Source: Auriscalpium vulgare
Taxonomy: Eukaryota; Basidiomycota; Agaricomycetes; Russulales; Auriscalpiaceae
Length of the DNA stretch: 64,000 nucleotides
Assembly (NCBI GenBank): GCA_019915015.1
Contig: JAHBBC010000017.1
Coordinates: 1,116,001-1,180,000 of the forward strand
Reading direction: 5' to 3'
Below are positions 3,001-52,962 of this stretch, one piece after another. The translations under genes were made by a program, and so were the position numbers. Numbering within the stretch: the stretch's first letter is position 1; each line of letters begins with the position of its first letter. Under the pieces are notes generated by a model, which did no database searches, was not told the origin of the DNA, and was given only the letters and a program-made list of their open reading frames with translations.

Positions 3001-6000
3001 ACCAGAATGCCTGGATCCGATCGTCTCAGCCGGTGCGTGTCATCCATATCAACACCACAAACATTGATTTGAGCCTAACTCCAGGCGGCCATCGCTGCAA
3101 AGGCGAATGTCAGTAATTACACCAAGCTTGTAAGTTGTCTATGCACCCGAGTGGACTGAAGAAAGTTCTCCGGGGCCAAGACCTGTGTCATTGATGAACA
3201 ACGGTTTGTCGCCAGCGATAATCCCCTTCTCCCGCTCCAGTTTGTCCACTGCCCGAGGAAAAAGACGAAGGAGATCGATTATAGATTGCGCGCATCGCAC
3301 AATACTGCCTTGCGAGCGGTAGTTGACTAGTAACTGAAACAGTGGGGGCTGTTCGACTCGAACAGGGCGTCGAAGAGCGGCTGCGTTTGACTTCTGCAAT
3401 ATTCACACATCAGACATTATTGTCATGTCGATAGGGGCAACCGACGCACCTCATATCGATACAAGAATGCTATCAACTCTTGAAAACGGAAAGCGCTTCC
3501 TGCTGCAATTGTCTGGGCCGTGTCACCAGCCCAGAAGAGTCCACGCGGATTAGTACACAAGATGCGTAGCACTGGAAATTGTAAGCGTAGAATAGCCCAG
3601 AGAAAAAAGGCAGTGGCTTACAGATGAGGTCGATAAGCAGGTTGTCCTGCACTTCATCAATATACCTAACGCGAAGTCACGTTATTTGCCATGATACGGG
3701 CTGCTTACAGTGACTTCGACTTACAGATAGTCGACTTTTCTGCCGATGACGCCATTCTCTTGAATGAATCGCAGTGCCTCGTGTGTTCTGCGCAGCTGGG
3801 AGATCAGGAGGGATGCAAAGTTTGTAGCTCGGAAAGCTCGTTTGAAGTGCACTTACCTGTCCGCCGCATCGCGCTCCCTGCGCTGTACCCTCCGTTGTTG
3901 ATACGCTTCGAAGAGCGCATAGTAGCCGTGCTGATCCCGTTTACGCTCATAGTCCTGGCTGTCGAGAGCGTAATTTGGCGCAGCTAAGCTACCTTCGGAT
4001 CCCTTGATCAGCCCTGACAGCATGCGTCAGGAGATAGGCAATGGGAGTCACAGCCTTCGTACCTATGATCTCGCTAAAAACCAAGGTCGGTGCTGCGATG
4101 GTTCGGCGCAACATTTAGTGATGGCTGTACTGCGCAGTTAAAGAGGAACGCACATAGTCCAGACGTCATGCTTTGCGGGAAGTGAGGCCAGTATTTCTCC
4201 CGGAAGGTGCTATACGTGACGAGGTCTCCTGACGATTGAAATGCCGCCGGGGCTTCCTCGCATTTTGATCCCGCTTTGAAATCGGCCTCGAGCAAGATGA
4301 AGAGCTTGGGGCATGGCATGAGAACAATCACGACTACAAAATGAAGTGACTTACATCATCGGTGGTAATGAACAAAGGGAAATGCGCATCCGATAATTCG
4401 CTGAATCGTGCAGGTAAGTCGGGGCGCCCGTTCCCACGATCATCGAGAGTCGACCACAGGCTCGAGCTTTCTCGGCGCGCCGCCCAGCTTGCAATCCTGT
4501 CGACGATATGTGCGGGCACATGTAACCCTACAGTGAGTGACTCAAGGAACTCGACGAAATCGTTCTCGACCTTCTCTGCCAAGTGGCGGGACTTCGTGAC
4601 GAACATCTGCCGGGGACGAGGCTCGCTACTGCCCGACGCCGCGAGGTTTGCCCACGCTTTTTCGATCCCGAATATCTTCAGAACGATAGTCGTTGTTTTC
4701 CTGTCCCGGAGCGTCAACTAAGTTCATAGAGGCCATGGCGTGTAGACTGACCCTGTCCCGCTGCGTCCGATAACGTAGCATGAATCGGTGTGTTCTACTA
4801 CCGCTTGTTCCTCTTCCCTGCGAAAAAACAGGTCAAGCCTCGCAACTCCGACTGATCGCAACCCACTCACGATATACGAAACACATGGGCGAGGTCTTTG
4901 CCTGCTAGGATGCCTTGCATGATAAGAGAGTCAGTTGTGTTCAAAATTGGGGTGTTGAGGTTGTTTACCGCTCCAGACATTCTGCAAACGCCGAAATGCC
5001 AATCAGCAAGACACATGCGTATACGTGAACAGAGACAACAGTCACCTGCGAGAGTAAAGTGTATTTTTGAATGCTGATAAGTACAGTCGTCACAGCCGAT
5101 GAGTCACGTGTCACGAGGGAATGTACTGAGGACTCACGCAAGACTCGAGGTATTCACCTGGAGTGGTATCAGTATGGATCTCATGCTACAAGAACGTCCA
5201 CTACGTACTGCGCCTGAAGATAAGGGACGGAGTTGGGCCACGGATGGCATGATGCGCTCGTTGATTGCCGCCGGGGCCCCATTACTGTCAAAGTACATTG
5301 GTGCGAAGACGTCGTCGCCCCCGTTTCGAGGGTGATTCCTCGCACGACAGCTAAAGGCCCGGTTAGAATTCATATACGACGAAGATGATGTGCGAGGAGA
5401 CTTCTTGACGTATCGCGAGCCGTTCTTGGCCGCGATCTGGCAACCGAGGTCGTCCCAATTTTCCCTCTTCACCTCGATGTGATTGTAGAAACCATATATC
5501 GTCAGGACTGTTTTGTTCGTAAAGTCAGCGACGCGATACTTAAGGACAATATTTGGGCAGCCACCTTGATGATTGTACTGCCGACGAAGCTTAGCCGGAG
5601 ACCTAGAAAATCACGGGATGCACGTACTCTGATACCGGGTTCCGGGATCCAGTCGACCTGATACTGCGACGAGAAATGTAAAGTGAGGCCCGTAGCTTAG
5701 AACCTTGCAGTTGCAACAGCTCTCGTACCACGATCCTCATGTCCCCAGGACATCTTGCTTCGAATATATCAACGGGGCTCTTGAATGTCAGCTTCTTCTG
5801 AGTGGTCCGTGAGAAACGACCCTCAGATAGCTCTCTACACCATATCAAATTACAGCCTGGGACAACACTCAGAGAAATCGTGGACGTACTTCAGCTTAGA
5901 CGAGAGCACGTCAAAAGTGCGGGAATCGCCGTGGCGGATCTTGGACAGAAAACCCGCAGCGTCGCGACGAGGATAAAGATGCCATTCACCGAAGTCACTG

Positions 6001-35617: not shown

Positions 35618-37123
35618 ATGGCCTTCCTGATTCAGGAAAATGCTCAAGAAATGCTCAACGCACCTCCTGACCGCAGCACATACCTCCTCCCGATGTATGG
35701 CGCGTATGTTGTCTTCACATTCAATCCGGTCGCCACCCTGGAGACATTGGAGGACCCGATTGCGACTGAGCAGGCCGCTGCTCTGACCACGAAGAAGTAC
35801 GTGGGGTATATCTCTCGTGTAAGTCGTAATACTTCTGTTGCCGGATGTTGCTTCTGAGAGTACTGGCGATTTAGGTTTGCGATCTTGCATTGCCTGAACG
35901 CAGATATCACCGATGCACGTGTCACCTGCTCAGCAATAGCTTACCAGCTGCATCGGAAACCGACCACACCGAAGAAACTATGTTCGTCCCGATTGCTCCG
36001 GCTACACACCCCGAAGGCCGTGAGGCCTTGTCACCAACTCCTCCTCTCCCTTGGGACGGCCTTTATCATCACTCGCTGAAGGAAATCGACCTCCGTCTGA
36101 TGACGGACCAAAGCCCAAGCATAGACCACAGCCTGTCGCCTATGATACCCTTGCGCAGTGTCATCGAAATGGGGCAGGTAGTGAACGCGGACTTCTTGCG
36201 CCAAAGTCAGTTGCGGGCAGCATACGAGGCTGTTCATCCCAAATCATCAGGTACTTCGATGCCGTTGGCCGTTCCGTTGGCCGAGGATGATAGAGGCCAT
36301 GATGAAGATCAAGACGATCATGCATCCTACTACTCCGATGGGTCAGATTCTGTGGTTCTGTCAGAGTCTCACTCCTCCGCGTCCAGCGACGATCTTGACT
36401 GGCTTCCGGAAACATTTCGAGATCCTTTCGTCGTCCGGGAGGATCCAGCACATCAATTTATGCCTGTGGTTGAGTTCAATGTCGACCTTTCCACCGTTGC
36501 CGAGTTCACGGATGCAAAACATTTCTTCAAGGAGATTGCCGCTGTGGAAAGGTACGTGTAATGACCATTAAGTTCTCTCTGAGTCCCTACACCTGACACT
36601 TCGCCCACAGAATTAGGGCCGAATCCGAGGAGCGCAGCCGTGAGCGCATGGAGCGGCTGGAAGCGGAGCGATTGGCGAATGAGCGTCAGCGTGACGCCTC
36701 TGCATTGATATTGGAGCACAGCCCTAAATGTGAGCGCTGCTATGATGCTCTCTATCGATATGTGGCCTAACATTTGCTGAACGTAGCGACGAGCCTCGTC
36801 TCACGGCTCATTGGCAAACCGCGTACCAAAGTCGAGGCAGAGCCCTCCGAGTCTGAGGAATCCCTGGCGCACGATAGGGAGCACAAGAAAGAAAGACGAC
36901 TCAGACGCTATTACACGATTGGCAGGAATGGTGAGCTGCGCCGCGCTCTGCAATACTTCCTTCGCATGATTCTGACACGACATTGACAGGCATTGTCTCG
37001 TTCTCTCGCGCGGTCATATCCGTCGTGTGGTCGTGCCTCCCATGCCGTTTGGCAGACATGCGCGAAGGTAGTTTGTCGTGTTGGAATTGGGACGCATGGT
37101 CTGGCCCGTGGCAGCTAGGATGA
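35618..37123 (+). CDS. Hypothetical protein, five-exon gene with a paralogue at 10459
   Basis: The first exon starts MAFLIQENAQEML and ends at VGYISR before GTAAGT at about 35820. The second exon (about 35877-36552) is acidic and serine-rich in the middle (DDRGHDEDQDDHASYYSDG, SHSSASSDDLDWLPE) and ends FNVDLSTVAEFTDAKHFFKE, EIAAVER. Exon 3 starts IRAESEERSRERMERLEAERL, a charged helix likely to be a coiled coil. Exon 4 has SLVSRLIGKPRTKVEAEPS. The last exon reads GIVSFSRAVISVVWSCLPCRLAD, possibly a membrane-facing helix, and ends WDAWSGPWQLG with TGA at 37121. All introns have GT-AG ends and the frame is open throughout, which is unusual in this window. I do not recognise the family. The upstream ATG at 35573 is in frame but too close to the TATA box. 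Confidence 0.7.
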
Positions 37124-38225
37124 TTGCGAATGTCCACTAACACAATCAATCGAATTGATCATTTGAAACGCGTCCCGTTCGACTGCTCTCTTCTCTACTC
37201 TGAACCTCCGTGCGCTGCCGCGCACTGGCCACGTGGTGACGAAGGTGGCTGCGAAAAATACCTTGGACAGCAGCGAGCAGTGTCGACGGTCTTCCGGGAG
37301 CCTTAGCTGTCGTGATGCCAAAGAACTCGATTTCCAAAGCGAAAGGGAGGCCGGTATGCAACCACCGCGTCCACAATGGACCGTCCGATTCAACGCTGCA
37401 TGCGCCATATGAGCACCAAAGACCAGGACAAAGTAACAACTGTACGCACCTTCATTTCAGCCGCGCAACCCGCTGGTCGTGCACATTTGAGCGGTCCACA
37501 ATAAGAACTCGTTGAGTACCCATTGGCATATGCATCTGCTGAGACCACGACAGAGAGCCGCCTCGATAGCGCTGCCTCTCGCCATGGGATAATCGTGGCT
37601 CATTTCTGTGTGATCCGCCGGTGGTGCGCGAGTAGCCACCCTGGGTTGAGTTACAACTTACCAGCACTTGGATCCCAGCCGAAAGAACCGCGAAGTGCTC
37701 AATAGCACTAATGAGTGAGTCAAAGGCTTCCTGAACACGCACTAGGATCGATCCCGTGGCGCAAAAGGGAAGGACGAGGATGACGTGGCGTCATTCGAGC
37801 ACGACCTGGATGAAAGAGAGGTCAGCAGCGTCAAAGGAGTGCTAGAGAATGGCCGACGCACATGCCCATCGTCACCACCTCGATTGCCCCCGGACCTACA
37901 CTCTCCTTGCACCCTCCCAGACGCCACGATTTCATCTAACCATGGCAGCGTGTAACACACCACGTTGGGAGCGATACCGTGCCGCGCGCCGGCAGTCGCA
38001 GCCTCGCCCAAGTCGAGGGACACCGTGACATGCTGCAGAGGCCGTGTGCTTGCCAGTCGTCACGACATGGCACAGCTTGAGGCAGGCGTATAGGCATGGA
38101 GATGTTGGTGGACGCACGAGACGCGAGAGGGATGCGAGAGGGTATACCGTGACGATGTGGCGAGACAGTCGTTCGGTCGGATCGGTCCCGACTCGGAGGG
38201 AGTTCACGTGATTGGAATATCCCGG
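37124..38225 (-). other. Unassigned region, possible decayed minus-strand gene
   Basis: Minus-strand pieces such as TFVVLLCPGLWCSYGAC and AFDSLISAIEHFAVLSAG suggest hydrophobic helices, but no continuous frame can be built. At about 37915-38110 the sequence resembles 41045-41215 (CGGCAGTCGC, GCCTCGCC, AGGCAGGYGTAT in the same order), so both may derive from one duplicated gene. Loosely, the hydrophobic pieces recall the DUF6533-type seven-helix proteins common in Agaricomycetes, but this is not demonstrated. Confidence 0.35.
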
Positions 38226-39560
38226 TAGTGTTGCGGGAAAAACCTCTGGCCAGTTTCCCCCCGGTAAGATACCAGTGGCGCTCCAGCCCGGGAGGTAAGA
38301 AACCGGTACATTACCAGGGAAATAGTCACGTGTTTTCTGTGTTCCCACGCCAACTACAGTAGCTTTTTTCGCGCCTGCGGCGCGATTGCCAGTGGTATAC
38401 GTAGTAGTGCAACGGCACCCCCAGCCTACGCCATACTGTACGATAAAATTACAGAAAATCGGAAAAATATTCACTTTGGCTTCTGTGGAAGTGTAGGCCG
38501 TCTATCGCAGCAGCGCGCGCCCTCCTAGCTCAGCAATTGAAGCCGGATAGTGGCCGAAGTAAGCATCCTCGAAAGGGTTTCATTGCCCAGTACTGACAGT
38601 ATTAGCAAGCTTGCTTTGAACAAATTTATTAGAAGGTTGGCACGTGAGTAGGAATAAGGATAACAGAGAGCAGAGCCTCGCACCACGCGTGGTGATATAC
38701 TTACGGGAAGTGCTGCAGACGTGGGTCAGATATCTCATGCACATGCGCAGCCGCGTACGAACTGTTCGTGATGCCAGTGAGCAGAGCAATTTGACAGGTT
38801 ATGACTCGGAGCCAGCGCGGCCACAAGCACCTCCAGCCCACACAGCGCAGCAACGCGGTCCTCACGACTCGGATGACGTGGGTGTCATCCCAGTTTCGCA
38901 TGCGCTCCATGACGACACCGGCGACAACGAGCTCGCGTTCAGTGGGCTTGTCTGCGGAGGGTGTCGCATGCTCAGATGCGTGGCGCGAAGTACTTGCGCA
39001 GCCCGTCTGTCTTCACGAATTCCGCGGCGCGTGTTCATCGGCGCACTAGGCCTCTTTGCAATCGTCCACTAAAACCTGTGTTTCTCGTGGTCATTGTGAT
39101 GTGTGCTCATGGTCGGGTTGGAAAAGCCCAGGGGTACGGGGTCTGCGTTGTGGTGAAAGCAAGAGTAGGTGTGGCTGGTAGTGCCCAAGGAGTGTGAGTG
39201 GCGAAGGTGTGCGCAAGCCTGGCGAGAAGCAGTCAAGCAGCGTGATCAATCAGATGTTGTCTGCGTGAAAGTGTGCTAGGATGTAGCTAGGATGCTCACA
39301 AATGTAGCTTCAACGCAACTCCCTCCCGCCGGAATGTGGAGGACTTACGCCCGCCGCTTCTGCATACAGGTTTCAAGACAGATTGACGGCTGGGGACCGC
39401 GAGGTCCGTGTGCCGGGCCGGCCGACACGTCACGTGCTTGAGGTATTATACCGGGTCCATTGGGCCCTAGGATGGGGTAGGTAAGATACCGGTACTTTAC
39501 AGGTATAATACCGGGGAAAAACTGTTTCGGGGAAAAACCTGGGTTTTTCCCGCAACCCTA
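38226..39560. mobile_element. Non-autonomous hAT element, copy 2
   Basis: Same element as 33137-34482, in the same orientation. The ends are TAGTGTTGCGGGAAAAACC and CCCGCAACCCTA. The perfect 8-bp target duplication is TATCCCGG (38218-38225 and 39561-39568). The length is 1335 bp. The first 300 and last 400 bases are essentially identical to copy 1, whereas the middle differs by about a dozen one-base indels. Confidence 0.93.
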
Positions 39561-39568
39561 TATCCCGG

Positions 39569-40013
39569 GCCGTGTCAGCAAGTTCAAACTTGCCCCCATG
39601 CAGTTGCCGTCATGCAGCTCGAGCCCGCTCCATATAGACCTGGCCAACTTCTCCATGCACATCCGTCGCCACCGCATGGAGCTCTCGTATGCATCAGAAT
39701 CTGTGAGCACCCCTTCATCTGAGTCGGCCACAGAAATACACCCCATTAGCGGTGATTTTCCGACGTCCATGACACGGCTTCAAGAACTGGCGTCAGCACA
39801 ATTACAGCTAGATGAATCACCCCCGCAAGATGGGTCTAGCATGTGTCCGACTCGCGTCTTCGCGGTCTCGACGCGCAGAAGCCTATCGTCATGCCGAGTG
39901 ATTACCTTCCCTCTGCGACCTTGCGTGCGTCCTTCGCCGTAACCTTCGGAGGATTCGGAGTCCTCCTTATGCGGCGCTCGGTCTTCGTATGAAGTGCGCA
40001 CAGTGCGACTCGG
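39569..40013. other. Upstream region of the LysM gene
   Basis: No gene is supported here. Overlapping open frames on both strands (serine-rich on plus, MDVGKSPLMG on minus) have no family resemblance. Confidence 0.4.
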
Positions 40014-40020
40014 TATAAAT
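40014..40020 (+). promoter_or_regulatory. TATA box of the LysM effector gene
   Basis: TATAAAT lies 52 bases upstream of the ATG at 40072, with a short pyrimidine-rich leader (CTCTCTGCTGC) between them. Confidence 0.7.
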
Positions 40021-40071
40021 GCTTTTCGCCTCGTCACTCTCTGCTGCAGAGTTCACCGGTCGCATTAGATC

Positions 40072-40806
40072 ATGTTCACTCCTGCCCCAGCCGTTTTACT
40101 ATCCGTCTTCCTCTGGGGGATGTCACTCACCAACGTGAAGGCTGCCGGACCCGGGCGACTTGCGACGGTGAGTGCTAAGCCTACGACGCAGCACTGGCAC
40201 ACTTCCCTGGGCTGCACACTGACTCGCTGTCCCCAGAACTGTACAGAATATCGTATGTTTGCGTGGCAAATGGGTTTTGATGGGTCCTGGTTGACAGATT
40301 TCCCTCTGTGCATGACAGGCGACACGTGCAGCACCATATACTCATGGTCGGGGGTCACTCCTTCGAAGCTTCAGTCGCTCAACCCGGGTATTCAATGTGA
40401 GATGTTCCACGCTATGCATATGCACGATGAGGACTGATCTTTCGCTCTCTAGGCAACTCTCTTACTCCGGGACAATCCATCTGCATATCGTGTAAGTGAA
40501 TAGGCACGCAAGGCTGGGCATGTTGTGCTCACAAAGTTTAAAGCGTATACGCCAGTTTGCACGGTCGACGTCACCGCGACTGGGACGTCCTGCGTGCCAA
40601 TTGTCACGGCATCAAACATCACGATCGCGGAATTCTACCAGCTCAACGATAACGTCGACAGTGCGTGTGACAATCTCGTAGTGGGGAGCCCAGTGAGTGG
40701 GCTGCGATATCATGCGGGCCCTTTCTGACGCCGCCGCCTTCAGTACTGCGTGAGCACGGATCAGTGCTTCCCAGGAAACACCGATCCGTTTTGCGACCAA
40801 GACTGA
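40072..40806 (+). CDS. Secreted LysM-domain protein (chitin-binding effector type)
   Basis: The gene has six short exons. The first encodes a signal peptide (MFTPAPAVLLSVFLWGMSLT, cleavage likely near VKA). Splicing 40072-40167, 40237-40252, 40298-40396, 40453-40491, about 40544-40691 and about 40743-40806 gives a mature protein with two LysM modules. The first carries NCTEY, GDTCSTIYSWSG, KLQSLNPGIQC and LTPGQSICI. The second carries TVTA-like GTSCVPIV, NITIAEFYQLND, CDNLVVG and YCVSTDQC. The cysteine spacing is typical of fungal LysM proteins, which bind chitin oligomers outside the cell and in plant-associated fungi hide chitin from host recognition. It ends PFCDQD. Every frame is open. 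The exact donor at the fourth exon is uncertain. Confidence 0.88.
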
Positions 40807-43573
40807 GCCGAAGACACGGTATAACATAAAGGCTGCAGCTCTGATCGCGTGGTCGTACGACCCCTTCAGACCTCTGTGTACCGTAGTCTACCTCATGATG
40901 ATGCCGTCCATCGTCTGCGCAGAGACACAATGTATTATCCTGGTTCGTTACAAAGAGTCTGTGCCAAGCTGTACCTGAACCTGAAAAGTCACGACCAGCA
41001 AATCGCGAGCGCTCGAAAATATAGCGCAGTGCAGCCCCCGCGCCTACATCCTCCCATACGCCGCGATCTCATCTAACCGTGGCATATTGGGCGCGAACGT
41101 GCCGCACGCCGGCAGTCGCGGCCTCGCCAAAGTCAAGAAACGTGCGCTTCGACGTGGCGCAGGCTGAGGCAGGTGTATGCGCAGGGAGATGCCGGTGGAC
41201 AGACGAGAACGTAGGAAAGTATCAGGGTCGGTAGGCGATAAGTTGTGCGTGGCGATTGCGTTCTGATAGGTGGATTTCGCTGCGACAACGCCCCACCTGT
41301 CGGGTGGTGGGACGGCCTGCAGCGAAGCACATTGATAGCACCCGCCATCGAAGTCCATCCAACGCCTCGGTGCGTGCACGGCGAGCTTGGCATACGGCGT
41401 TGTCCGCGGACGGTGCAGCCGGAGCTGGGAGACGAGAGGTTGGGCGCCGCGCATATATGTTCAGCTGGTAGGTGAAGCGCTGGGGAGTCGGGGCGGTGTC
41501 CACGGGGAAGCTGCAGGCAGCGGTGCGTCCCATATTGAAGGCGTGGCGCACAGCCTGTTTCTGTTGCGATAATCTTGACATCTTGACACACACGAGCAAG
41601 GTTAACCTGCGTCAAGTCCAAAGACGCGGTTCAGCTGGGAGATAGCGGAATAGTAAGGAACTCGTACCATCGACGAGCAGCTTGAATTGGATGAGCGCCG
41701 CTGTGCTCGAGTCTCAGCCGCGCGGCATCTTCACCGTTGCACGCGTGCCCAGAATGTTGAGCAGGTTCGCCGGAGTGCAGCAGTGCGATACGCTCGGCCT
41801 GCACGATGGTCAAGATCGAGTCAACCTTGCCCGCCCTCTGCGTCTTTAGAAAGTCAGCGAGCGGCAGATTATGTGAAAGGTAGCGCACGTACAGGGGAAG
41901 CACATATGGCGCTCTATCAGCCCGCAGTTACACGTATTGAGGATGGGGATGGACAGGTACCGCAGGACACACATCAGCATCTCTTTCTGTACGTGAACGG
42001 CAACAGGAGAGGACGTACGGAGGAGCTGACGACGGAGTGGCTCAGCCAGAACACGACGCAGGGCGCTCAGCGCGCGGGCTGGGTACACGCGTGGCGGGCG
42101 TGGATTGAGGACGACGACGACGCGGTGGAGGATATGCCTTCAAATGAAGCCGCTCAGCAGGCGTAGTCCACCGGATCCTATCTCCCAAGACAGATTCACG
42201 AGACTGAAACGTGCAGGCCGATAAACGAAGATCTTGCGTTGTAGGGAGACACGCCACATGGGCAAGGACAAAGAGAACGGTCGGCCGTGTTTGCGCTGGC
42301 GAGATCCGACTGTACTTGCGGGGCCTGGGGCTGCTGGTCGCCTCTGGTGGAGCAACCGTTGCGAACTCTGACCGGGAATGTATGCGCCTCAGGTCAATGA
42401 GCGGCTCATAGAGCGGCATCTGCAAATAATGGTCAAGTGGACAGATCTCGTGGGATGTCAAAATATAGACGTACCAGAGGTGCTGCGCATACAAGCCATT
42501 GGCCGAGAGCGATGTACTCCGGTCGAGTAAGACGAACCGGCTCGCGGGATAAGCGCCACCGCTCCATTGCGTTGACGGTCTCCGGGTTCAAGGGACCACT
42601 GAATGCGGTGCAGAATGGCGACGGGAGGGAGGGAAGCAATGTGATGCACTCGTTGCCATGTGATCGAGTCTTCGGGGATGAGACTACACCCGACCTGACA
42701 CCGCAAGTTCTCTGACTTGCATGCCAAGGTTCGTCAGCTAGCGCAGCAGAGGGTGCAGGCTGCGGCGTACTTACACCTCAGCGCCGCTCACTACACTCGT
42801 CTCTTGTGTCCAGGAAGTCGTCGGTGCGTGCGCATGAGCATGTGCTTCAGCGAGGTGCAGTTTGAGCCCGTGCGCATGCGTGGACGGCGGGGTGCGAGGC
42901 AGTATTGAAAGTTGATCGTGGTACCGCCGTGTTACCACCCCGACCCTGGGACAGGACAGATTTGTCGCTAACATGGGCGAGGCCACTGAGCACTGGGCCG
43001 GGGGTGAGATGCACAATATGGCTGCGGCGTTGAGACGGATGTGTGGGTACTGGAGGATGAGCGGCGACGCGAGTGGGGATCATGGTTGCGGTTGGAGAGC
43101 GCGGAGATCCTGTTTCGGTACGGCTGCAATGATGCAGACGTCGGTTGTCACCGTCTGCCAGCAGTGGCAGGCTTTTAGCGCGTCGACAGTGCCCGCGCGC
43201 TCAGCGTCTTACATGGGAAGAGTTGGTTTGGCCGGGTGTTGTGTTTTCGGCCAGGTGTTTCGAGGGAATGATAAGAAATGCAAACGCAGCTGTGACATTG
43301 GTCGTTCGACTGGATTACTTCACCACCACGCATTTGTTGAGCGGGTGTGGCGGCGCATCGCCGCGATGGATTACTAATAGCACATCGACATCGCCCCTTC
43401 GACAGCAACTACAACAGGTCTCCGTGAAGACGCAGATGTACAAGTTCGTCAAGCCACTCATGACTCGAGTGAAGCAGCGGAAAGTTGCCCTCGTTGATCG
43501 GAGTCAGTCGTACTTGTTTGTCAACACGACCTATGTAGCACACTGAGTGATGTACACAGATCGCGAATCGACA
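40807..43573. other. Unassigned 2.8 kb, no gene convincingly supported
   Basis: Overlapping frames exist on both strands: plus 41687-42166, plus 42973-43546, minus 41133-41621 and minus 42042-42494. None shows motifs. Minus-strand pieces such as VQKEMLMCVLRYLSIPI and AERIALLHSGEP could be exons of the same decayed gene seen at 37.1-38.1 kb, with which 41045-41215 shares a block of sequence. Near 42830-42880 a short CATGCGCA/CATGTGC run occurs. Confidence 0.35.
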
Positions 43574-46500
43574 ATGATGAAAAACCCGCTATCCGAGGCC
43601 ACCCCGACAACGTTGCTGGCACTGTTGCGAGAAATCAGTGAAGTCAGCACTCAAGTACCTTACATCAAGGGAGCTGCTGGAGTGTTATCGAGGATCATTA
43701 TGATCACTGATGTGTGTCAGCCTTGAGCTGTATTGATTGTCCAGGTCAAACTGACTCGTGCTGGCTGAACCACAGACCCTGAGCATATATGAGGGTGAAT
43801 TGGATGAGGTCAATAGCAATGTTGTGCAGTTTGCATCACTCCTTGCTGGGGCCTCATCATATGCTCAAAACCATGCTTGGATAATTCCTCCAGATTTGCA
43901 GCCTGTGTTGGAACTATGGCCACAGTAAGTTCACTATCAATTTTCTGTTCTTATTTTCTTGCTCTTTGTGTCGGTCATATCACAGCCTTGCTCCACCCAA
44001 GACAGTGTCTTCTGCTAACCTTCCTCTTGTATAGAGAGCTCAGGGATATTGAAAGTAGTCTAAATCAATACACACATGAAAAAAAATCAACATGGAGAAG
44101 AATATGTCATATCATAACTGACAGGGGCAATGGCCAGAATCAAATATTGCAATGAACAATTCAAGAAGCTCTCAGAAGCCTATCAGGTATAGTTGGCCAG
44201 AATGAGTGATGCACAAGAATGCTCAATTATTCTCCAGTCAAGTCTGGTAATCACTATCAAGGCAAATGCAGATCATATTCTGGAGGTGGGCCTTGGATTT
44301 GTTGTGCTTTCTGGTCTTAATACACAATAGTGACTTTTTACCTAGACCCCTTTACCAGCCAAAGGTGTGTGTGTCTTTCTAATTTGCTAAGTTTATACTG
44401 GAGATGTTTTGACAGGTTAAACATCAACATACCATCTTACCCTTCAATCTTTCAGGGGCGTGATGATCATATGATGATTCTAACAGAATTATTTGGAAAC
44501 AAAGTTAAACTACCTGCTCGAGCTGCACTTCTTGGCCCAGGTGGAATTGGAAAGACTACTTTGGCTTTGGCGGTCCTACACAACCCTCTAGTGGTGCATA
44601 CCTTTGATGAAAGGATATATTTTGTGTCATGTGAAGGATGTCTTTCTATGGCTATGCTGTTGAATGAGATGGCAAAAGCTTTGGGCATCACAAATGACTC
44701 TGATAGTGCCTCGCTTGAAACAAGCATACTTTTGAGTCTAGAGTCATCTTCAAGCTTGCTATGTGTTGACAATTTGGAGACATTGTGGAGGAGTGATATA
44801 AAGATGCACGTGGAAGTTTTCCTACAGAAAATAACAACTGTATCATCTGTGAGTGTACTAGTAACAATGAGAGGTTCAGAACATCCAGGGGATATTGCTT
44901 GGTCCAAGCCTCTGTTAAGACCCTTAGAGCCACTAGGCTTCCAGACTGCTCAACAAATATTTCAACAGATATCAGATCAATGGAATGAGTGGGCAGAAAG
45001 ACTGGTTCAAGCTGTTGAGGGTCTTCCTCTAGCAATCACAATAATTGGTCACCTTGCACAATCATATCACTGCAAAAAACTATGGGAACAATGGCAGGAG
45101 CTGGATATTAAAATAATTGATCGAGGAAATGGTCATCGTCTTACTAGTCTTGAGACTTCAATTCAGCTGTCTATCTCACAGTTGAGACACTCTACTGCAA
45201 TATTACTTCTAAGCTTGCTAGGGGTTCTTCCAGGTGGTTTATCTGTCCAAAATATTGATGATTTTCAGTCACTGTTTCCTAACTCTCAAAATATAAAAGA
45301 GGGTATTAAGCCTTTGTTAGAGAGCAGTTTAGCATATATTTTGTTTGATACACTACATGTGCACCCCCTTATTCAACATTACTGTCAAAATCATCTTCCA
45401 TTGTCTCAACAGTATGCCAAGCTGCTACAGCAGTATTACATTGAGCTCAGTGTGGGAAATACCAACAGTCACAGCCAAAGTCACATATCTACCAAACAAC
45501 TCATGGAATATAAAAATACAGGTTATATCTTGTTACAATCTTTGAAGACTGATGTCCCTACTATATCCATGGTGAATGCTGTCATATCACACTCCTGGGT
45601 GTTAGCACAGGAAACAGGTTCATTTGATGTAGAGTTGTTTGAGGCATTAGAACATTCAAGGCAGTCTCTTTCATCTCAGTTAGTTGTTAGATACCAGATA
45701 CAATGGGGTCTGTGTCTCAGACGCTGTGGAAAACATGATGAAGCATATGCTAAATTTCTAACAACCTTGAATATGCCCAAGCGCAGATACATCGGGATGA
45801 AGAATATGAAGCAGACATATTGAGGCACATAGGTGTTATACACAGTCTCCGTAATGAAATTGACACAGCTCGCACCTTTTGGGAGAAGGCATTTCTGTTG
45901 TATGAGAAAGTCCACTGTATTGAAGGACAGGCTTATATTCTATCTCAATTGAGCACTGCATCATGCCTGAGAAGTTCATATCAGCAAGCAAAAGAATATG
46001 CAAAGAAATCTATTGAACTATATGAAAGTATCGAGGATGATTTTAGCATTGGAAATGCTCTGCTTTTCTTAGGGGATGCTCTTCAATGGGAGGGTAACAT
46101 GGATGAAGCCCGAGTCAATTTTTGAAATCTCTGGATGTTTTCATAAAAGCAAATAGTAGAGGTGGGCAAAGCTCAGCATATGAGTCTTTGGGATGCTCAT
46201 ACATGTCAGAAAATAATTATGCAATGGCAAAGGACTATCTTAATAAGTCTCTGTTGCTTAGAAAACAAATCAATAATGTGGCTTCTTACTCTTCTGTCTT
46301 GGATTTTTTAGGGGAACTGCATCTATGCTTACAAGAATATGAAACTGCATTAGACTATTATCACCAGGCTGTAGATATTCATCGAGCAAGTCATCACACA
46401 ATCCAAGAGGGTGGAGCTCTTTGTAGTATTGCTGATGTGTATCTGGATATGGGAAAGAGATCAGAGGCTATCAAGTATCTGAATCAGGCCATAGCACTTC

Positions 46501-46964
46501 ATGAAACCTGTGATAATGCAGTCCGATATCTAGGAAAAGACTTACAGATCCTGGGAAAAGTATACTATGACGATGACAAACCAGATTTGGCAAGAGAGTT
46601 TTGGACAAAGGCAATAGTTATGCATACCAAAGCCAGTAACAAGGAACCACTTGCACATACTCTTATGTTTATAGGATGGACCTACTCAGATCAATGGAGT
46701 ACAGACATAGCAAGGGGGTATTTCTTGCAGGCACTATCAATTTGTGAAGAATACAGCTTTCCGCGTACACATGCAAGAGTTCTAAGATCTCTTGGAGATA
46801 TGTACAGAGATGACAAAGAGTTGGAAATAGCTATAGGGTGGTACAAAAAGGCTTTGGGAGTTCAAAAGAAAATCTCCAATATCAAAGCCACTGAATATCT
46901 TCACAATGCTATAGCAGAGGCAACAAATACTATGACTGAACAACCGCCACAATCTGAGCCTTAG
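43574..46964 (+). CDS. NLR/STAND protein: N-terminal helical domain, NB-ARC, TPR array
   Basis: The N-terminal exons (from MMKNPLSEATPTTLLALL at 43574) contain VPYIKGAAGVLSRIIMITD, then ELRDIESSLNQYT and QSSLVITIKANADHIL frames. This matches the four-helix N-terminal domain of Agaricomycete NLRs, often compared with MLKL/HeLo-type membrane-acting domains. The NB-ARC part follows: the IFQGRDD linker, P-loop GPGGIGKTTLA (44534-44566), Walker B region SSLLCVDNLE, VLVTMRG, and GLPLAIT (about 45019). TPR repeats fill 45700-46964, with at least six helix pairs such as AKEYAKKSIELYESIEDD and ALDYYHQAVDIH, ending MTEQPPQSEP. The expected role is a signal-sensing NTPase switch in allorecognition or programmed cell death. 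One base is missing at about 45770 (TTG/GAA) and one in a T-run at 46120; otherwise the frame is intact. The AT-rich composition is unlike its neighbours. Confidence 0.85.
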
Positions 46965-47504
46965 CTGCTCAGACATTACAGTGCGTGCTAATTGATTCAC
47001 AAGCTAACCTCAACTTACACTCTATTCAGGTGTTTGATTGTATCAAGAAGTATCATTGTATTCTCCAAATAGGCTCAAAGTGTACTCTATAAATAAACAA
47101 TTTACTTGCAACTTACCCTGAAATCCCTGATCTCAATTGGGAACCGGCTTGTTGGTAGCTTATTAACCTTTCCCATATGGTAATTCCTTAACTCCCACAC
47201 TCTGAACTCTCATGCTCGGCGTCACGTGGACTTCCGCTTGTTCCCCCAAATGCTGTCACTGTAGTGAATGCTGTCACTATAGTGAATGCCGTTGTTCTGG
47301 CGTGCTTGGATGAACCTACTAAAATCCCACAAAATATTGATATATTAGATATTTTTATTCATTCATAATATAGGGCTCAATTGACCACGGATTGCATTGC
47401 TCACGACTGTATCCTTGTCGGTACAAGAAGATGATGATATACCACGTATACTGTCTCTATCCTAACCAAACTGCGCACGTCAAATCTGGGCTCTATCAAA
47501 TTCA
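46965..47504. other. 3' flank of the NLR gene, AT-rich
   Basis: The sequence stays AT-rich to about 47390 and carries AATAAA at 47093-47098, a plausible polyadenylation signal 130 bases after the stop. No gene is seen. GC content rises sharply after about 47400. Confidence 0.55.
47251..47286. repeat. Two tandem 18-bp units with a palindromic core
   Basis: TGCTGTCACTGTAGTGAA is followed directly by TGCTGTCACTATAGTGAA. The second unit contains the perfect palindrome CACTATAGTG and the first differs by one base. The purpose is unknown; it could be a small element footprint or a protein-binding site. Confidence 0.7.
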
Positions 47505-49880
47505 TTAGCCAATACCCGGCTGGACGGTGCGCACCACGTACCGCTTTGCGACGGGGTCGTCGCAGGCCTCGTCTGCGCCTCGTTTCGTGCCCCGCGGTAG
47601 CGCCGCAACGAGCTGCGACACAACCCGGTCGACATCTTCAATGGCAGAGAGAACCTCACCTACATCGTCATCCGTCCTGGTTGCTGCTGCCTACCAGACA
47701 ATGGTGATCAGGACCAGGACGAAGCTGTTTCTCCCGCCCCTGAAAAGCTCGGGCCATGTCTCGTCGGGGACGACCTTGTGCTTCAACGGCCAATCACTCT
47801 CGCCCTGCCGCCATGCGGGCTGCATCCACGTCCACCAGATCCGCCATTTGGCTGCGAACGTGCTGACGGTGCCGATCTTCGGCGGCTTGGAATACTTGCG
47901 GCCAATCTTGAACCACGCCTTGATCGCCGCCGGCCGGTAGTTCTTGTTGCAGCTCAAGCCAGCCTATCCTTATCCTTATAACGGCAGTGGTCAGCGTAGG
48001 GACAGTCACATACGAATCTGTGCATACCTGATTGTTGTCCATGATATGCATCTCCACGGTCAACCACGCATTGATAAGGTGCTGCCAATCGGGCTTGTCA
48101 ATGGCTGTGGCCACGAAGGCGTATGCATCTTGTAGCCAGCCCTGCAGACCGGTGATAAAGACGTCGTGGCTTGCAAGCATGTTGCAATTAGTGGGCGTGA
48201 GCATTGTCAATGGGGCGCTTGGCGTGGCGGCAGGCTGGTCGGAGACAGCGGACAATGCGGCAGGTAGGATACTAGTGTCTGCTGCGAGGCTTCTTCATTG
48301 TTGTCGTTGTCGTCGTTGTCGTCATTGTCGTTGCATGTGTTGTCATTGTCGTGTGTTGTCGTCATTGTTGTTTTCTTCACCTTCCTCCTCCTTCTCTCTT
48401 CAGCCTTTAGGTCGGCGAGAATCTCTGCGTGCGTGGCCTCGTCAAGGTCATCCGCAGAGCTACACAATTTTCAGTAAAAAGGCAGGATGGAGAGCATTGA
48501 GCGACTTACAGTCCTTGCCAGGGCTTCGAAGTGAACACTTACGGCCCATTGACGGTGCATGCTTGCGCTTTGTCCTCCACCCCTTCTCCTTGGGCGCTCC
48601 CAGTTCCGCAACGAGCTTGCTGCCAGCGCCGCGTAAGCCGAGCGCGTCCAGGGTGGCCTGCAAATTTGCGATGTTGGCAAGCCGCTGCCTATCTGTGGGA
48701 GTGCCTGACAACGTCGGAAGCGCAGTAGGAGGCATTGCGATGCCCGCAGAAGTGTCGTTTGGCTGGCAAGTTGGGGCAGAGGACTGGGGAGTCGGGGGAG
48801 ATGCCAGAGAAAGTGTACCGCCAGATGTAGCGCCGGGGGCGGCACCGGCGACCGGCACGGCTATTTCGGAGTTTGACGGCGCAGTCGTCTGTGTCACGGC
48901 GGTCTCATTCAACACTGCAACAGCCGTCGATGTCGCAATGTCCGACTCGAACACCTGTGGCCCATCTGGAGCTGTGAAGAAAGCAGGTGAGCTAGGTTAT
49001 ATCGTCTGTCAATCAAGGCGGCTTACGGAAGATTCGGTGCAGGTATTCAACGAACGGCTTCTCAACACTCTCTTTGAACCCGGGATATTGTGACTTGAAG
49101 CTCTTCCCATCCACCGTAGCTGTATGAATCCTGGACCGTAATGCTCAGGCACCAAACCGGTGCAAGAAAGCGGGGAAGACTCACAAAAATGACCGTAGCT
49201 CCCCGTCATCGCCGGGCACTGGTCCTCCCAAGGTGAACAAGCCAACCCATCCAGTCAATCGGTAGATCTCTTTCAGGGCAACGGCCACTGTTTGAGGGAG
49301 CAGGTCGATGGCTCTGGCAATGCCGGTGAGTGCAAGGCATGCAGAATGTGGATGCGGCAACTTACTTTAGCATATCATCTAGCTTCTCTTCATCGGGAGC
49401 CACAGGGCAATCTGCCCCGATACCCTCATCAAATGCCACGGCCACAGCCTCCTTCACCTCTGCTGACTCTGTCTCCAGCAGCTTGCGGCACCGCCTGTTA
49501 CGGAAGGCCAGTGCACCGCTTTTTTGGCCCGGGTACCATCGCTAGGTGTATCTTCCACTCGAGCTCAATGATTGCCTGAAGTTTTGCCTCCCAGTACATG
49601 CTCTTGTACGTTTGGTACGACACCAGGCGCCTAGTGGACTTTCCGGACAGGTCAAGAACTTTGCTCGTGGCTGCAGCACGCAACTGCGCTCTGCGCAAGT
49701 GGTTGTTGTACCACTGCTTCAAGCGCTGGTTGGTTCATCAGTTCAAAGCTCGGCGGCGCATGATGACAATGCACCTTTAGAATGGGTGGGTCATTCGCCG
49801 TAGAAGTCTCCGGTTCATCTTTGCCGTCCGGCCAACGGTGCTTGAGGCCGCCGCCTCTGCCTACCACGTTGGAATGGCCG
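47505..49880 (-). CDS. Conserved Agaricomycete orphan-family protein
   Basis: Minus-strand exons read RWPDGKDEPETS (49820), WYNNHLRRAQLRAAATSKV (49690), LEWKIHLAMVPGPKKR, LETESAEVKEAVAVAFDEG (49470), EIYRLTGWVGLFTLGGPVPG (49260), a proline/serine/threonine-rich linker (48460-48950), GLQGWLQDAYAFVATAIDKP (48140), IKAWFKIGRKYSKPP (47920), WRIWWTWMQPAWRQGESDW (47830), FRGGRNSFVLVLITIVW (47720) and a tail RGTKRGADEA ending TVQPGIG with the stop at 47505. This order matches a multi-copy family found in mushrooms and polypores with no assigned function. The KxWFKxGRKY and WWTWMQPAWR blocks are its most conserved parts. Start not determined. The frame is mostly intact. Confidence 0.65.
48296..48376. 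repeat. TTGTCG-type microsatellite inside the orphan gene
   Basis: Imperfect TTGTCG/TTGTTG units on plus encode an Asp/Asn-rich run (DNDNTCNDNDDNDDNDNNEE) on the minus strand within the linker of the 47505-49880 gene. Confidence 0.75.
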
Positions 49881-51689: not shown

Positions 51690-52244
51690 TGCCGAAAATG
51701 CCAAAAGTCGGGGGTTTCTCCGCTAGACGGCTGGGCAGGCGTATCAACGGCGAAAGCCGCTATCGCGCCATCCTGCGCACGAACGACCTGGTAAGCCTTG
51801 ATGACTAATATTCGTCTGCATTTCACTAATCTGCCTTGACAGCCTGATGGCATGGTGAACCTGCGCTTGCCGGCGTACAAATCGGGCTCCAAAGCGGACG
51901 ACAATGAAGACCGCGTGTCCATTGTGGAGCCAGTGCTAGCCGCATCCCAGGATGACACCATCGTTAATGTGCCTTCTCCCGCCCCGCCGACGCCCTCCAC
52001 GAACCTCTCGTCCCTCAGCAACATCACCAGCACTGGCTCCGTGCGCGCTTCAACACCTGGCCTCGCCGTACCCCAGACGGCGTTCACCTTCCCTGGCCTG
52101 ACGCCCAAGATTGCCGGCAACACGGCAAGGCAGGGCATCGCTAGGCCGAGCGCCCGCACGCCGCTGTCTCCTGCGGGATGGGCACGCAACGTCCACTTGG
52201 GGGGGGAATGGCCAGTGCAAGCATGGCAGTACAATTACTCTTAA
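51690..52244 (+). CDS. Short hypothetical gene or C-terminal fragment
   Basis: ATG at 51690 opens MPKMPKVGGFSARRLGRRIN. A GT-AG intron of 52 bases (about 51791-51842, GTAAGC to TTGACAG) joins RTNDL to PDGMVNLRLPAYKSGSK, and the frame continues through serine/proline-rich sequence to a TAA at 52242. The last few residues come from a repeated 40-bp block (52196-52235), so the original 3' end may have been replaced. A 268-residue minus-strand frame overlaps it but looks like a shadow. Function unknown. Confidence 0.4.
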
Positions 52245-52660
52245 TTGTGAGGGAGGAGGGAGGGGGAGGGGTAATTCACAATATGCCAAGTGCAATTGAA
52301 AGTTCTCTGTAAACCAAGTTATACTTTCCAGCTATATCTCAGCTGCATTTAGGCTAGTGCAGGGACAGTTGAATTATTATAGACTGTACTATATATCAAA
52401 ACAGATGCCTTGTATCCTCTTGTTCCGTATATGTCAGATATTGTGTTGAACTTCTCCTCAGTGATACAAACCCTGCCTGTGGTTATCCCATCATGAAACC
52501 ATGTTTCAGCTGAGTCTCCTATTATACGTGCAGTAAAATGAGCATGTGCAAAATAGATAATACCTTTCAGCTTGTACATTACCTTATTATCGCTACCGCC
52601 AACATGCATGGTCTGTTTTACTTGGGGTCAGTGGCCATTGCAAGCATGGCAGTACAATCA
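52196..52660. repeat. Direct repeat flanking a 385-bp AT-rich segment
   Basis: At 52196-52235 and 52621-52660 the same block occurs: CTTGGGG, a few variable bases, TGGCCA, then TGCAAGCATGGCAGTACAAT. The DNA between the copies is AT-rich, in contrast to the GC-rich DNA on the left. It may be an insertion footprint or a duplication made when the AT-rich segment arrived. Confidence 0.7.
52349..52609 (-). pseudogene. Fragment of an Agaricomycete repeat-family protein
   Basis: The 86-residue frame reads MHVGGSDNKVMYKLKGIIYF, then HFTARII, TWFHDGITTGR. The pattern of hydrophobic strand, HFTARI, then W(Y/F)HDG recalls a C-terminal segment common in mushroom repeat-associated proteins and, distantly, the histidine box of ubiquitin-specific peptidases. 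It is isolated, AT-rich and bounded by the direct repeats at 52196 and 52621. The assignment is weak. Confidence 0.35.
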
Positions 52661-52962
52661 CTATAATCATTTTTTATTTTTACTTTTCTTACATATTACA
52701 TATAATAACAACAGATGCTAAGCCACTATATTCTCTACTCAGTGTATTAGGCTCAGTTTAATTATAACTTAACACATGCTGTTCGGTTTCTGTAGACAGA
52801 GCACAGGCTCCAGTCTGGCTGTGTGTGGAACCAGAATTATGATATGTGACATAGGCAGGTATATATTTAGTGGGGTTTCATATACTCCACCTGGTACTAA
52901 CAGATCCTCGCCTGTGAACTCGAGGATGAGAGCCACCTCCGCCTGGTCGTCCAACGACATCT

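Follow-up and report, generated by a model that had tools for sequence, protein, structure and literature searches.

A CpG-poor island over a fungal NLR gene, probably the footprint of methylation-driven decay in an amplified receptor family

The locus and its NLR gene

The window analysed here is a stretch of 64 kb on contig C17 of an assembly of 51.6 Mb in 96 contigs. Its top AT segment, 3883 bp long, reaches a score of 220.7, against 46.9 for the runner-up, and GC in the 500-bp windows around it (38–52 kb) is ~0.49–0.62, with surroundings at ~0.57. The first-pass annotation had described an AT-rich island with sharp borders in GC-rich surroundings, and both the maximum-scoring segment and the 500-bp GC windows bear this out. 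CpG o/e is 0.26 across the depleted domain in Table 1 and 0.05–0.30 per 500-bp block from 44001 to 47000, compared with 1.05 in the window outside 43–48 kb; the NLR body itself has a CpG o/e of 0.18, with TpG at 1.31 and CpA at 1.45. What chiefly marks the island is its shortage of CpG.

Table 1. Features of the 64-kb window, in window coordinates
Feature	Position	Strand	Remarks
Upstream block, recurring near other NLR copies	39610..42683	+	Normal composition (CpG o/e 1.09)
Open frame in the recurring block, sub-threshold LysM match	40072..40437	+	E 0.0078, 16.6 bits (Pfam cut-off 20.9)
CpG-depleted domain	43501..47400	.	600-bp scan; borders averaged over 17 (exon 1) and 15 (stop) copies
NLR exon 1, conserved helical N-terminal segment	43574..43714	+	Intermediate composition; tblastn and aligned-copy composition
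AT-rich segment	43632..47514	.	GC 0.402; maximum-scoring segment of the window
Long open frame: NB-ARC (domain 44525..45172) and start of helical/TPR part	44330..45823	+	Frames, Pfam
TPR region, frame piece 2	45820..46125	+	Broken at both ends relative to intact copies
TPR region, frame piece 3	46122..46964	+	Through stop codon
Second CpG-poor AT stretch, dispersed-repeat fragment, not NLR	52201..52900	.	o/e 0.18; 50 DNA matches

Within the AT segment lies a single NLR gene (+ strand), made up of exon 1, the NB-ARC and then TPR repeats up to the stop codon. Its frame is broken into the three open pieces of Table 1, a stretch that its twin on contig C38, L017, reads through in a single frame of 873 codons. 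In the gene region, the window copy has four one- or two-base gaps relative to L017 and to L020, an 88% relative, and the breaks may be real or may reflect an unpolished stretch of the assembly. Of 21 fragments searched by tblastn (the window and 20 further loci), 19 contain exon 1. The NB-ARC scores above the Pfam cut-off in the family, and the P-loop columns G236, G239, G241, K242 and T243 are invariant across 24 aligned homologues. TPR_12 was matched in P0001, the intact twin (E 5.7e-36), and a TPR superhelix appears in the predicted model of the homologue P0003, where helices 33–182 suggest a helical bundle at the N-terminus. No Pfam family was found in the N-terminal helical region, and the fold search, which returned mostly TPR proteins, barely probed the N-terminal fold. 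The architecture first proposed for the gene (helical N-terminus, NB-ARC, TPR) agrees with the exon 1, NB-ARC and TPR_12 matches.

By its sequence, the window gene belongs to the fungal NLRs, STAND proteins built of an effector, an NB-ARC and repeats, and it resembles the NB-ARC/TPR NLRs of Agaricomycetes, a large and fast-turning family with a helical N-terminus, NB-ARC and TPR array. By analogy with other STAND NLRs, the TPR array would very likely sense a non-self or altered-self ligand, the NB-ARC would act as a switch and oligomerize, and the N-terminal helices would execute a response that is probably cell death or rejection.

Complete or partial copies of the block upstream of the gene lie near NLRs at several sites on C17, C38, C40 and C43. 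Weaker matches lie on C1 and C10 with no listed NLR nearby, and the N-terminus of the small frame within the block resembles a signal peptide by eye. The depleted stretch at 52.2–52.9 kb is a mobile repeat, some relatives of which lie within open frames of ~2,470–2,480 codons. Neither the tRNA search nor the Rfam search gave a match in the window, and Pfam gave none in eight of its other frames.

One CpG-poor island per NLR copy

A Pfam search for NB-ARC found at least 40 places in the genome, 13 of them on C17, with an open frame of at least 780 codons at 29 of the 40. Twenty of the 40 were taken with ~10 kb each, besides the window, and the other 19 as the domain only. All 20 loci with flanks are AT segments with a GC of 0.38–0.41 within DNA of 0.51–0.65, the segments of L027 and L028 being shorter than those of the other loci. 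CpG depletion was found in 40 of 40 NB-ARC domains (o/e 0.00–0.36), although some of these pieces are only ~200 bp long.

The borders follow the gene. In 17 copies aligned at exon 1, upstream DNA has a GC of ~0.58 and a CpG o/e of ~1.1, which drops from 100 bp 5' of the ATG; exon 1 is intermediate (GC 0.47, o/e 0.55), and the 300 bp after it have a GC of 0.435 and an o/e of 0.13. It had been suggested that the composition break might fall inside the gene, and the profile places it there, at the 5' end. From +200 to +1500, o/e stays at 0.05–0.18 except for one bin of 0.47 at +800. In the 15 copies aligned at the stop codon, o/e is 0.13–0.39 across the final kilobase and 0.22 just 3' of the stop, and the depletion fades 100–500 bp past it, reaching ~1 by 400–500 bp. 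Non-coding parts are depleted too, with an o/e of 0.12 in the interval from exon 1 to the long frame and 0.32 in the first 150 bp 3' of the stop. When the window and the 20 loci were cut into non-overlapping 600-bp windows, leaving out those at borders and calling an o/e below 0.45 depleted, 112 of 126 windows within NLRs were depleted, vs 2 of 283 outside. The two exceptions are the stretch at window position 52201 and one at 7201 in L024, which adjoins its NLR. A sliding scan added three depleted runs of 600 bp that lie outside NLRs, in L009, L015 and L016, and a depleted NLR 5' piece in L027. With the repeat at 52.2–52.9 kb depleted as well, we rejected the idea that depletion is exclusive to NLRs.

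Retrotransposons and a further gene family served as controls. CpG o/e was 0.94–1.12 at the 12 best-scoring RVT_1 loci (3.5 kb) and 0.97–1.54 at 12 lower-scoring or truncated RVT_1 domains picked by hand from 150 scored, so that none of the 24 RVT_1 retrotransposon loci measured is depleted (o/e 0.94–1.54). The same holds for the six P450 domains measured out of 107 matches (o/e 1.12–1.35). Since multi-copy retrotransposons, in fungi the usual target of methylation, are undepleted, duplication alone does not leave the CpG footprint. Further multi-copy families in the genome are the fungal kinases (141 matches) and the KDZ transposons (168 matches).

A second group of NLR type was reached through a NACHT search, which gave 55 places, 21 of them the NB-ARC genes again; 28 of the 34 others were measured. 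Twenty of these 28 are depleted (o/e 0.05–0.39) and eight are not (0.95–1.25). All 20 depleted places have a paralogue with 62% protein identity or more and none of the eight undepleted places has one above 48% (Mann-Whitney p 5e-5), paralogy being judged within the 28 measured places. On a tree of the 28 NACHT domains the depletion label needs 2 changes, vs 7.1 in shuffles, which means that the association with copy number comes from a small number of independent events. A pure copy-number rule holds among the NACHT genes measured; however, the undepleted retrotransposons led us to reject it as a general rule. L072, one of the eight undepleted places, looks more like NB-ARC than NACHT by eye.

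CpG change between copies and its possible causes

CpG change was counted in pairs of copies at least 80% identical, with L027 and L028 excluded. Pooled over NLR bodies, CpG>T was found at 381 of 1326 sites vs CpH>T at 4347 of 48229, and pooled over flanks CpG>T at 551 of 13058 vs other C>T at 823 of 28478, in counts that are not independent because pairs share sequences. Between the window copy and L017, the CpG>T ratio is 9.5 for the body, against 2.3 for the flanks, the body counts, rebuilt from rounded rates, being 13/49 vs 58/2070 (Fisher p 2e-9). For L017 and L020 the ratio is 9.8 in the body vs 1.2–2.2 in the flanks, and for L020 and the window copy 5.1 vs 1.8. More distant body pairs give 1.8–4.9, as saturation predicts, and L023 and L024, a 99% pair, have too few changes for a ratio. 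Among the dinucleotide indices, (CA+TG)/(AC+GT) is raised in NLR bodies, and TA/AT is 0.65–0.78 in eight of them vs 0.58–0.77 in their flanks. Together, the CpG depletion, the excess of TpG and CpA and the raised CpG>T change make up a MIP-like signature of methylation and deamination.

By context, CpG>T in NLR bodies is most frequent at ACG (0.42), followed by GCG (0.32), CCG (0.29) and TCG (0.17). This order, with ACG at the top and TCG at the bottom, is that of spontaneous 5-methylcytosine decay in mammals. For Microbotryum, by contrast with TCG as the least mutated context here, a TpCpG bias is reported in the available part of PMC4352252. CpG o/e is 0.39 at CGN codons, where both transitions alter the protein, and 0.11–0.13 at codon phases where one transition can be silent, a pattern of mutation working against purifying selection. 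In 11 intact pairs and three regions, dN/dS is 0.19–0.42, showing the intact NLR frames to be under purifying selection; no positive selection over whole regions was seen, dN/dS being below 0.5 in 33 of 33 values.

Retrotransposon pairs gave a pooled CpG>T of 367/11656 vs 538/30655 (ratio 1.8). Single pairs ranged from below 1 to ~4, with higher ratios where few sites were counted, and L029/L031 showed 0.024 vs 0.006. As CpG>T is raised in some of these pairs, the process may extend beyond NLRs, and a part of the retrotransposons may be methylated but still young.

CpG loss accounts for a different share of the AT shift depending on the reference. At sites outside CpG-capable contexts, GC is 0.486 in NB-ARC (27 measured), 0.473 in depleted NACHT and 0.473 in RVT, and this equality makes CpG loss the whole difference from the retrotransposon coding DNA of the genome. 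Relative to flanks (0.465 in NLRs vs 0.589 in CpG-free contexts) and P450s (0.614), a further AT bias remains, and CpG loss explains the shift only in part.

We consider it likely that the island is a CpG-decay footprint, driven by methylation, on a member of an old, amplified and native NB-ARC/TPR NLR family. Multi-copy NLR bodies would have been methylated at CpG for a long time by fungal DNMT1-type enzymes, and 5-methylcytosine would then deaminate to T, with purifying selection keeping most frames intact. Putative CpG methyltransferase genes are present in the genome, as judged from domain matches to DNA_methylase (PF00145) at C9, C4 and C12 and to DNMT1-RFD (PF12047) at C4, beside one of them. 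That such methylation would be a functional gene-body mark aimed at immune receptors is a stronger claim and an unlikely one, and the raised CpG change in some retrotransposon pairs implies that methylation may not be aimed at NLRs. Alternatively, NLR bodies might be methylated as a gene class, through transcription or a histone mark and regardless of duplication, and the way the depleted domain follows the gene and spares the promoter side, in two NLR-type groups, would suit this; we regard it as improbable nonetheless, given that all eight low-copy NACHT-domain places (putative NLRs) are undepleted, that a non-NLR repeat is depleted and that fungal gene-body methylation is generally negligible according to the part of the review PMC13297926 at hand. 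A RIP-like pre-meiotic process, mutating CpG in duplicated NLRs directly as a diversifying mutator without a long methylated phase, would account for the restriction of depletion to multi-copy genes among the NACHT places; CpG-type 'RIP-like' change has been described for basidiomycetes in the accessible portions of PMC4352252, PMC4014442 and PMC4457147, and RIP, as C>T change in duplicated sequence, has been proposed to feed the diversity of Podospora NLR repeats in those of PMC4986451. Here, unlike in RIP, the change is at CpG, gene-long and accompanied by mostly intact frames (at least 780 codons at 29 of 40 places, with the low dN/dS of the 11 intact pairs), and near-identical retrotransposons are undepleted. 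TA/AT is hardly raised and CpA and TpG are overrepresented, opposite to the pattern of classic CpA RIP, and the low rate at TCG departs from the Microbotryum bias. Classic RIP is rejected on dinucleotide indices, CpG context and intact frames, and RIP of all long duplicated DNA disagrees with the 24 undepleted RVT_1 loci, which leaves the RIP-like reading, in our judgement, rather unlikely.

It has little to recommend it, in our view, that selection rather than mutation strips CpG from NLR genes, through codon preference or avoidance of silencing: silent positions show the strongest depletion, and depleted copies keep intact frames, as such selection would have it, but the sequence separating exon 1 from the long frame is equally depleted (0.12), TpG and CpA, which C>T decay produces, are overrepresented, and twins show elevated CpG>T change. 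Arrival of the gene, horizontally or by introgression, from an AT-rich and CpG-poor genome was the reading first offered for the island, and it draws on the sharp composition borders and on the segmental duplication and exchange of the locus. The exchange part stands, with a 96% twin (L017) on another contig over 9.5 kb, an 88% relative over 7.2 kb and mosaic identity among the relatives of the window copy; recent arrival does not. The composition is common to the 40 NB-ARC domains, with islands at all 20 loci that have flanks, and the CpG-poor state to 20 of 28 measured NACHT places, GC outside CpG contexts (0.473–0.486) equals that in the coding DNA of the genome's own retrotransposons (0.473), and CpG change is still raised between the 96% twins. 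The nearest homologues found are Auriscalpium NLRs (best 57%) with a like amino-acid signature. Contradicted by the family-wide composition and the other evidence at hand, arrival from outside is rejected as barely credible, and NLR-bearing AT islands in fungal genomes need not mean horizontal transfer.

Age of the state, known systems and family dynamics

The best relative of the NLR is an Auriscalpium vulgare protein of 57% identity, while the GH5 frame beside one NLR copy is 89% identical to its Auriscalpium vulgare counterpart, a difference indicating that NLRs turn over quickly. These identities place the genome with an Auriscalpiaceae-like fungus of the Russulales. Homologues are also found in Artomyces pyxidatus. 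The amino-acid ratio GARP/FYMINK was compared in 34 named NLR relatives, taken from 120 listed of 156. It is 0.65–0.96 in all 13 Auriscalpium vulgare NLRs, a low-GC signature, against 0.60–0.85 in the 16 frames of our own genome, and mixed in Artomyces (0.77, 0.86, 1.04 and 1.38); in 17 NLRs of other fungi it is 0.91–2.31, a range that just overlaps that of A. vulgare. At the level of proteins, this hints that the low-GC, CpG-poor state of the NLRs may be older than the species from which the window comes. A like composition in relatives had been named at the outset as what would speak against recent arrival, and the protein signature agrees with it indirectly.

CpG methylation signatures have been described for basidiomycete repeats (available parts of PMC4352252 and PMC13297926). 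The MIP-like methylation of basidiomycete transposons by Masc2/DNMT1-RFD enzymes shares with our case the CpG>TpG signature, and a DNMT1-RFD match is present here. The same review, as far as its text was available, describes fungal methylation as lying mainly on transposons, with gene-body methylation largely lost. Unlike in those transposons, the clearest CpG-decay footprint in this genome is seen on genes of immune-type receptors, whose frames are open and where the borders follow the gene sharply, and not on the retrotransposons tested. In Arabidopsis, CG methylation covers NLR bodies and highly variable NLRs are less methylated, according to the available part of PMC11093987. A CG-type mark over NLR bodies would be common to both, though it is putative here, from CpG decay, and the eroded NLRs here are the amplified, fast-turning ones. 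In Rhizoctonia solani AG8, CpG hypermutation between nuclei has a CpG>TpG bias that reaches genes (PMC4014442, in part); there, levels are similar in genes and repeats, whereas here certain gene families are affected, with sharp borders.

In the literature searched by titles and abstracts, where subscription papers lie mostly outside coverage, we found no description of CpG-eroded gene bodies in fungal NLR families, nor did the available parts of PMC13297926, PMC12994199, PMC4986451, PMC5974365, PMC4352252, PMC4014442, PMC4457147 and PMC11093987 contain one. If the methylation reading is true, the locus offers a concrete and cheap test of how a genome marks amplified NLRs, and it would bear on whether non-self recognition in mushrooms is shaped by silencing and on CpG decay as a possible source of receptor diversity.

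Copies multiply by segmental duplication, often together with a shared 5' block. Divergence among L009, L011, L022 and L026 is 2–8% between 1.4 kb upstream and +400, apart from a first bin of 12%, and climbs to ~20% in the TPR part, and homology stops just past the stop codon; these four copies combine a common 5' block with a sensor that diverges. CpG decay is not supported as the driver of this gradient, which starts at ~+400 and is equally strong at non-CpG sites. The trio to which the window copy belongs has a milder divergence peak in the TPR part, and L014, L015 and L019 show no gradient and have little in common beyond the gene.

Elements and recurring sequence around the NLR

Features flanking the NB-ARC/TPR gene (o/e, CpG observed/expected ratio)
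Feature	Window coordinates	CpG	Detail
Repeat	38223-39561	normal	~1.34 kb
Recurring block	39610-42683		weak LysM-type frame at 40072-40437
Dispersed-repeat fragment, AT-rich	52201-52900	poor (o/e 0.18)	

The region spanning 36000-49700 of the window matches separate pieces of contig C38 (56136-65600 and 5253-8925) at 93-98% identity. This arrangement reflects rearrangement of a haplotype or, alternatively, segmental duplication. The smaller of them, C38 5253-8925, runs uninterrupted without the repeat at 38223-39561, which therefore looks like a recent insertion. Five copies of that repeat, 99% identical to it, were found on contigs C1, C13, C17 and C19 (two on the last). The block with the weak LysM-type frame recurs close to other NLR copies on C17, C38, C40 and C43 and is possibly a neighbour gene travelling with the NLR.

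The dispersed-repeat fragment had 50 matches in a DNA search, and relatives of its 86-codon frame lie elsewhere within open frames of ~2,470-2,480 codons. This repeat is also carried by C38, in inverted orientation.

Layout of two other NB-ARC loci

At locus L010 (C38:8000-17900), the NLR is split by a ~1.4-kb insertion; a piece related to the dispersed-repeat fragment at 52201-52900 interrupts this gene. Locus L018 (C10:740700-750600) contains a tandem arrangement of one NLR body and the greater part of another, both lying in a single 6-kb CpG-poor stretch.

NACHT frames on C2

Thirteen NACHT frames, each of ~520-590 codons, are located at about 1.5-3.15 Mb of C2. All ten that were fetched and measured are CpG-poor (o/e 0.05-0.20), and three of these ten encode identical domains.
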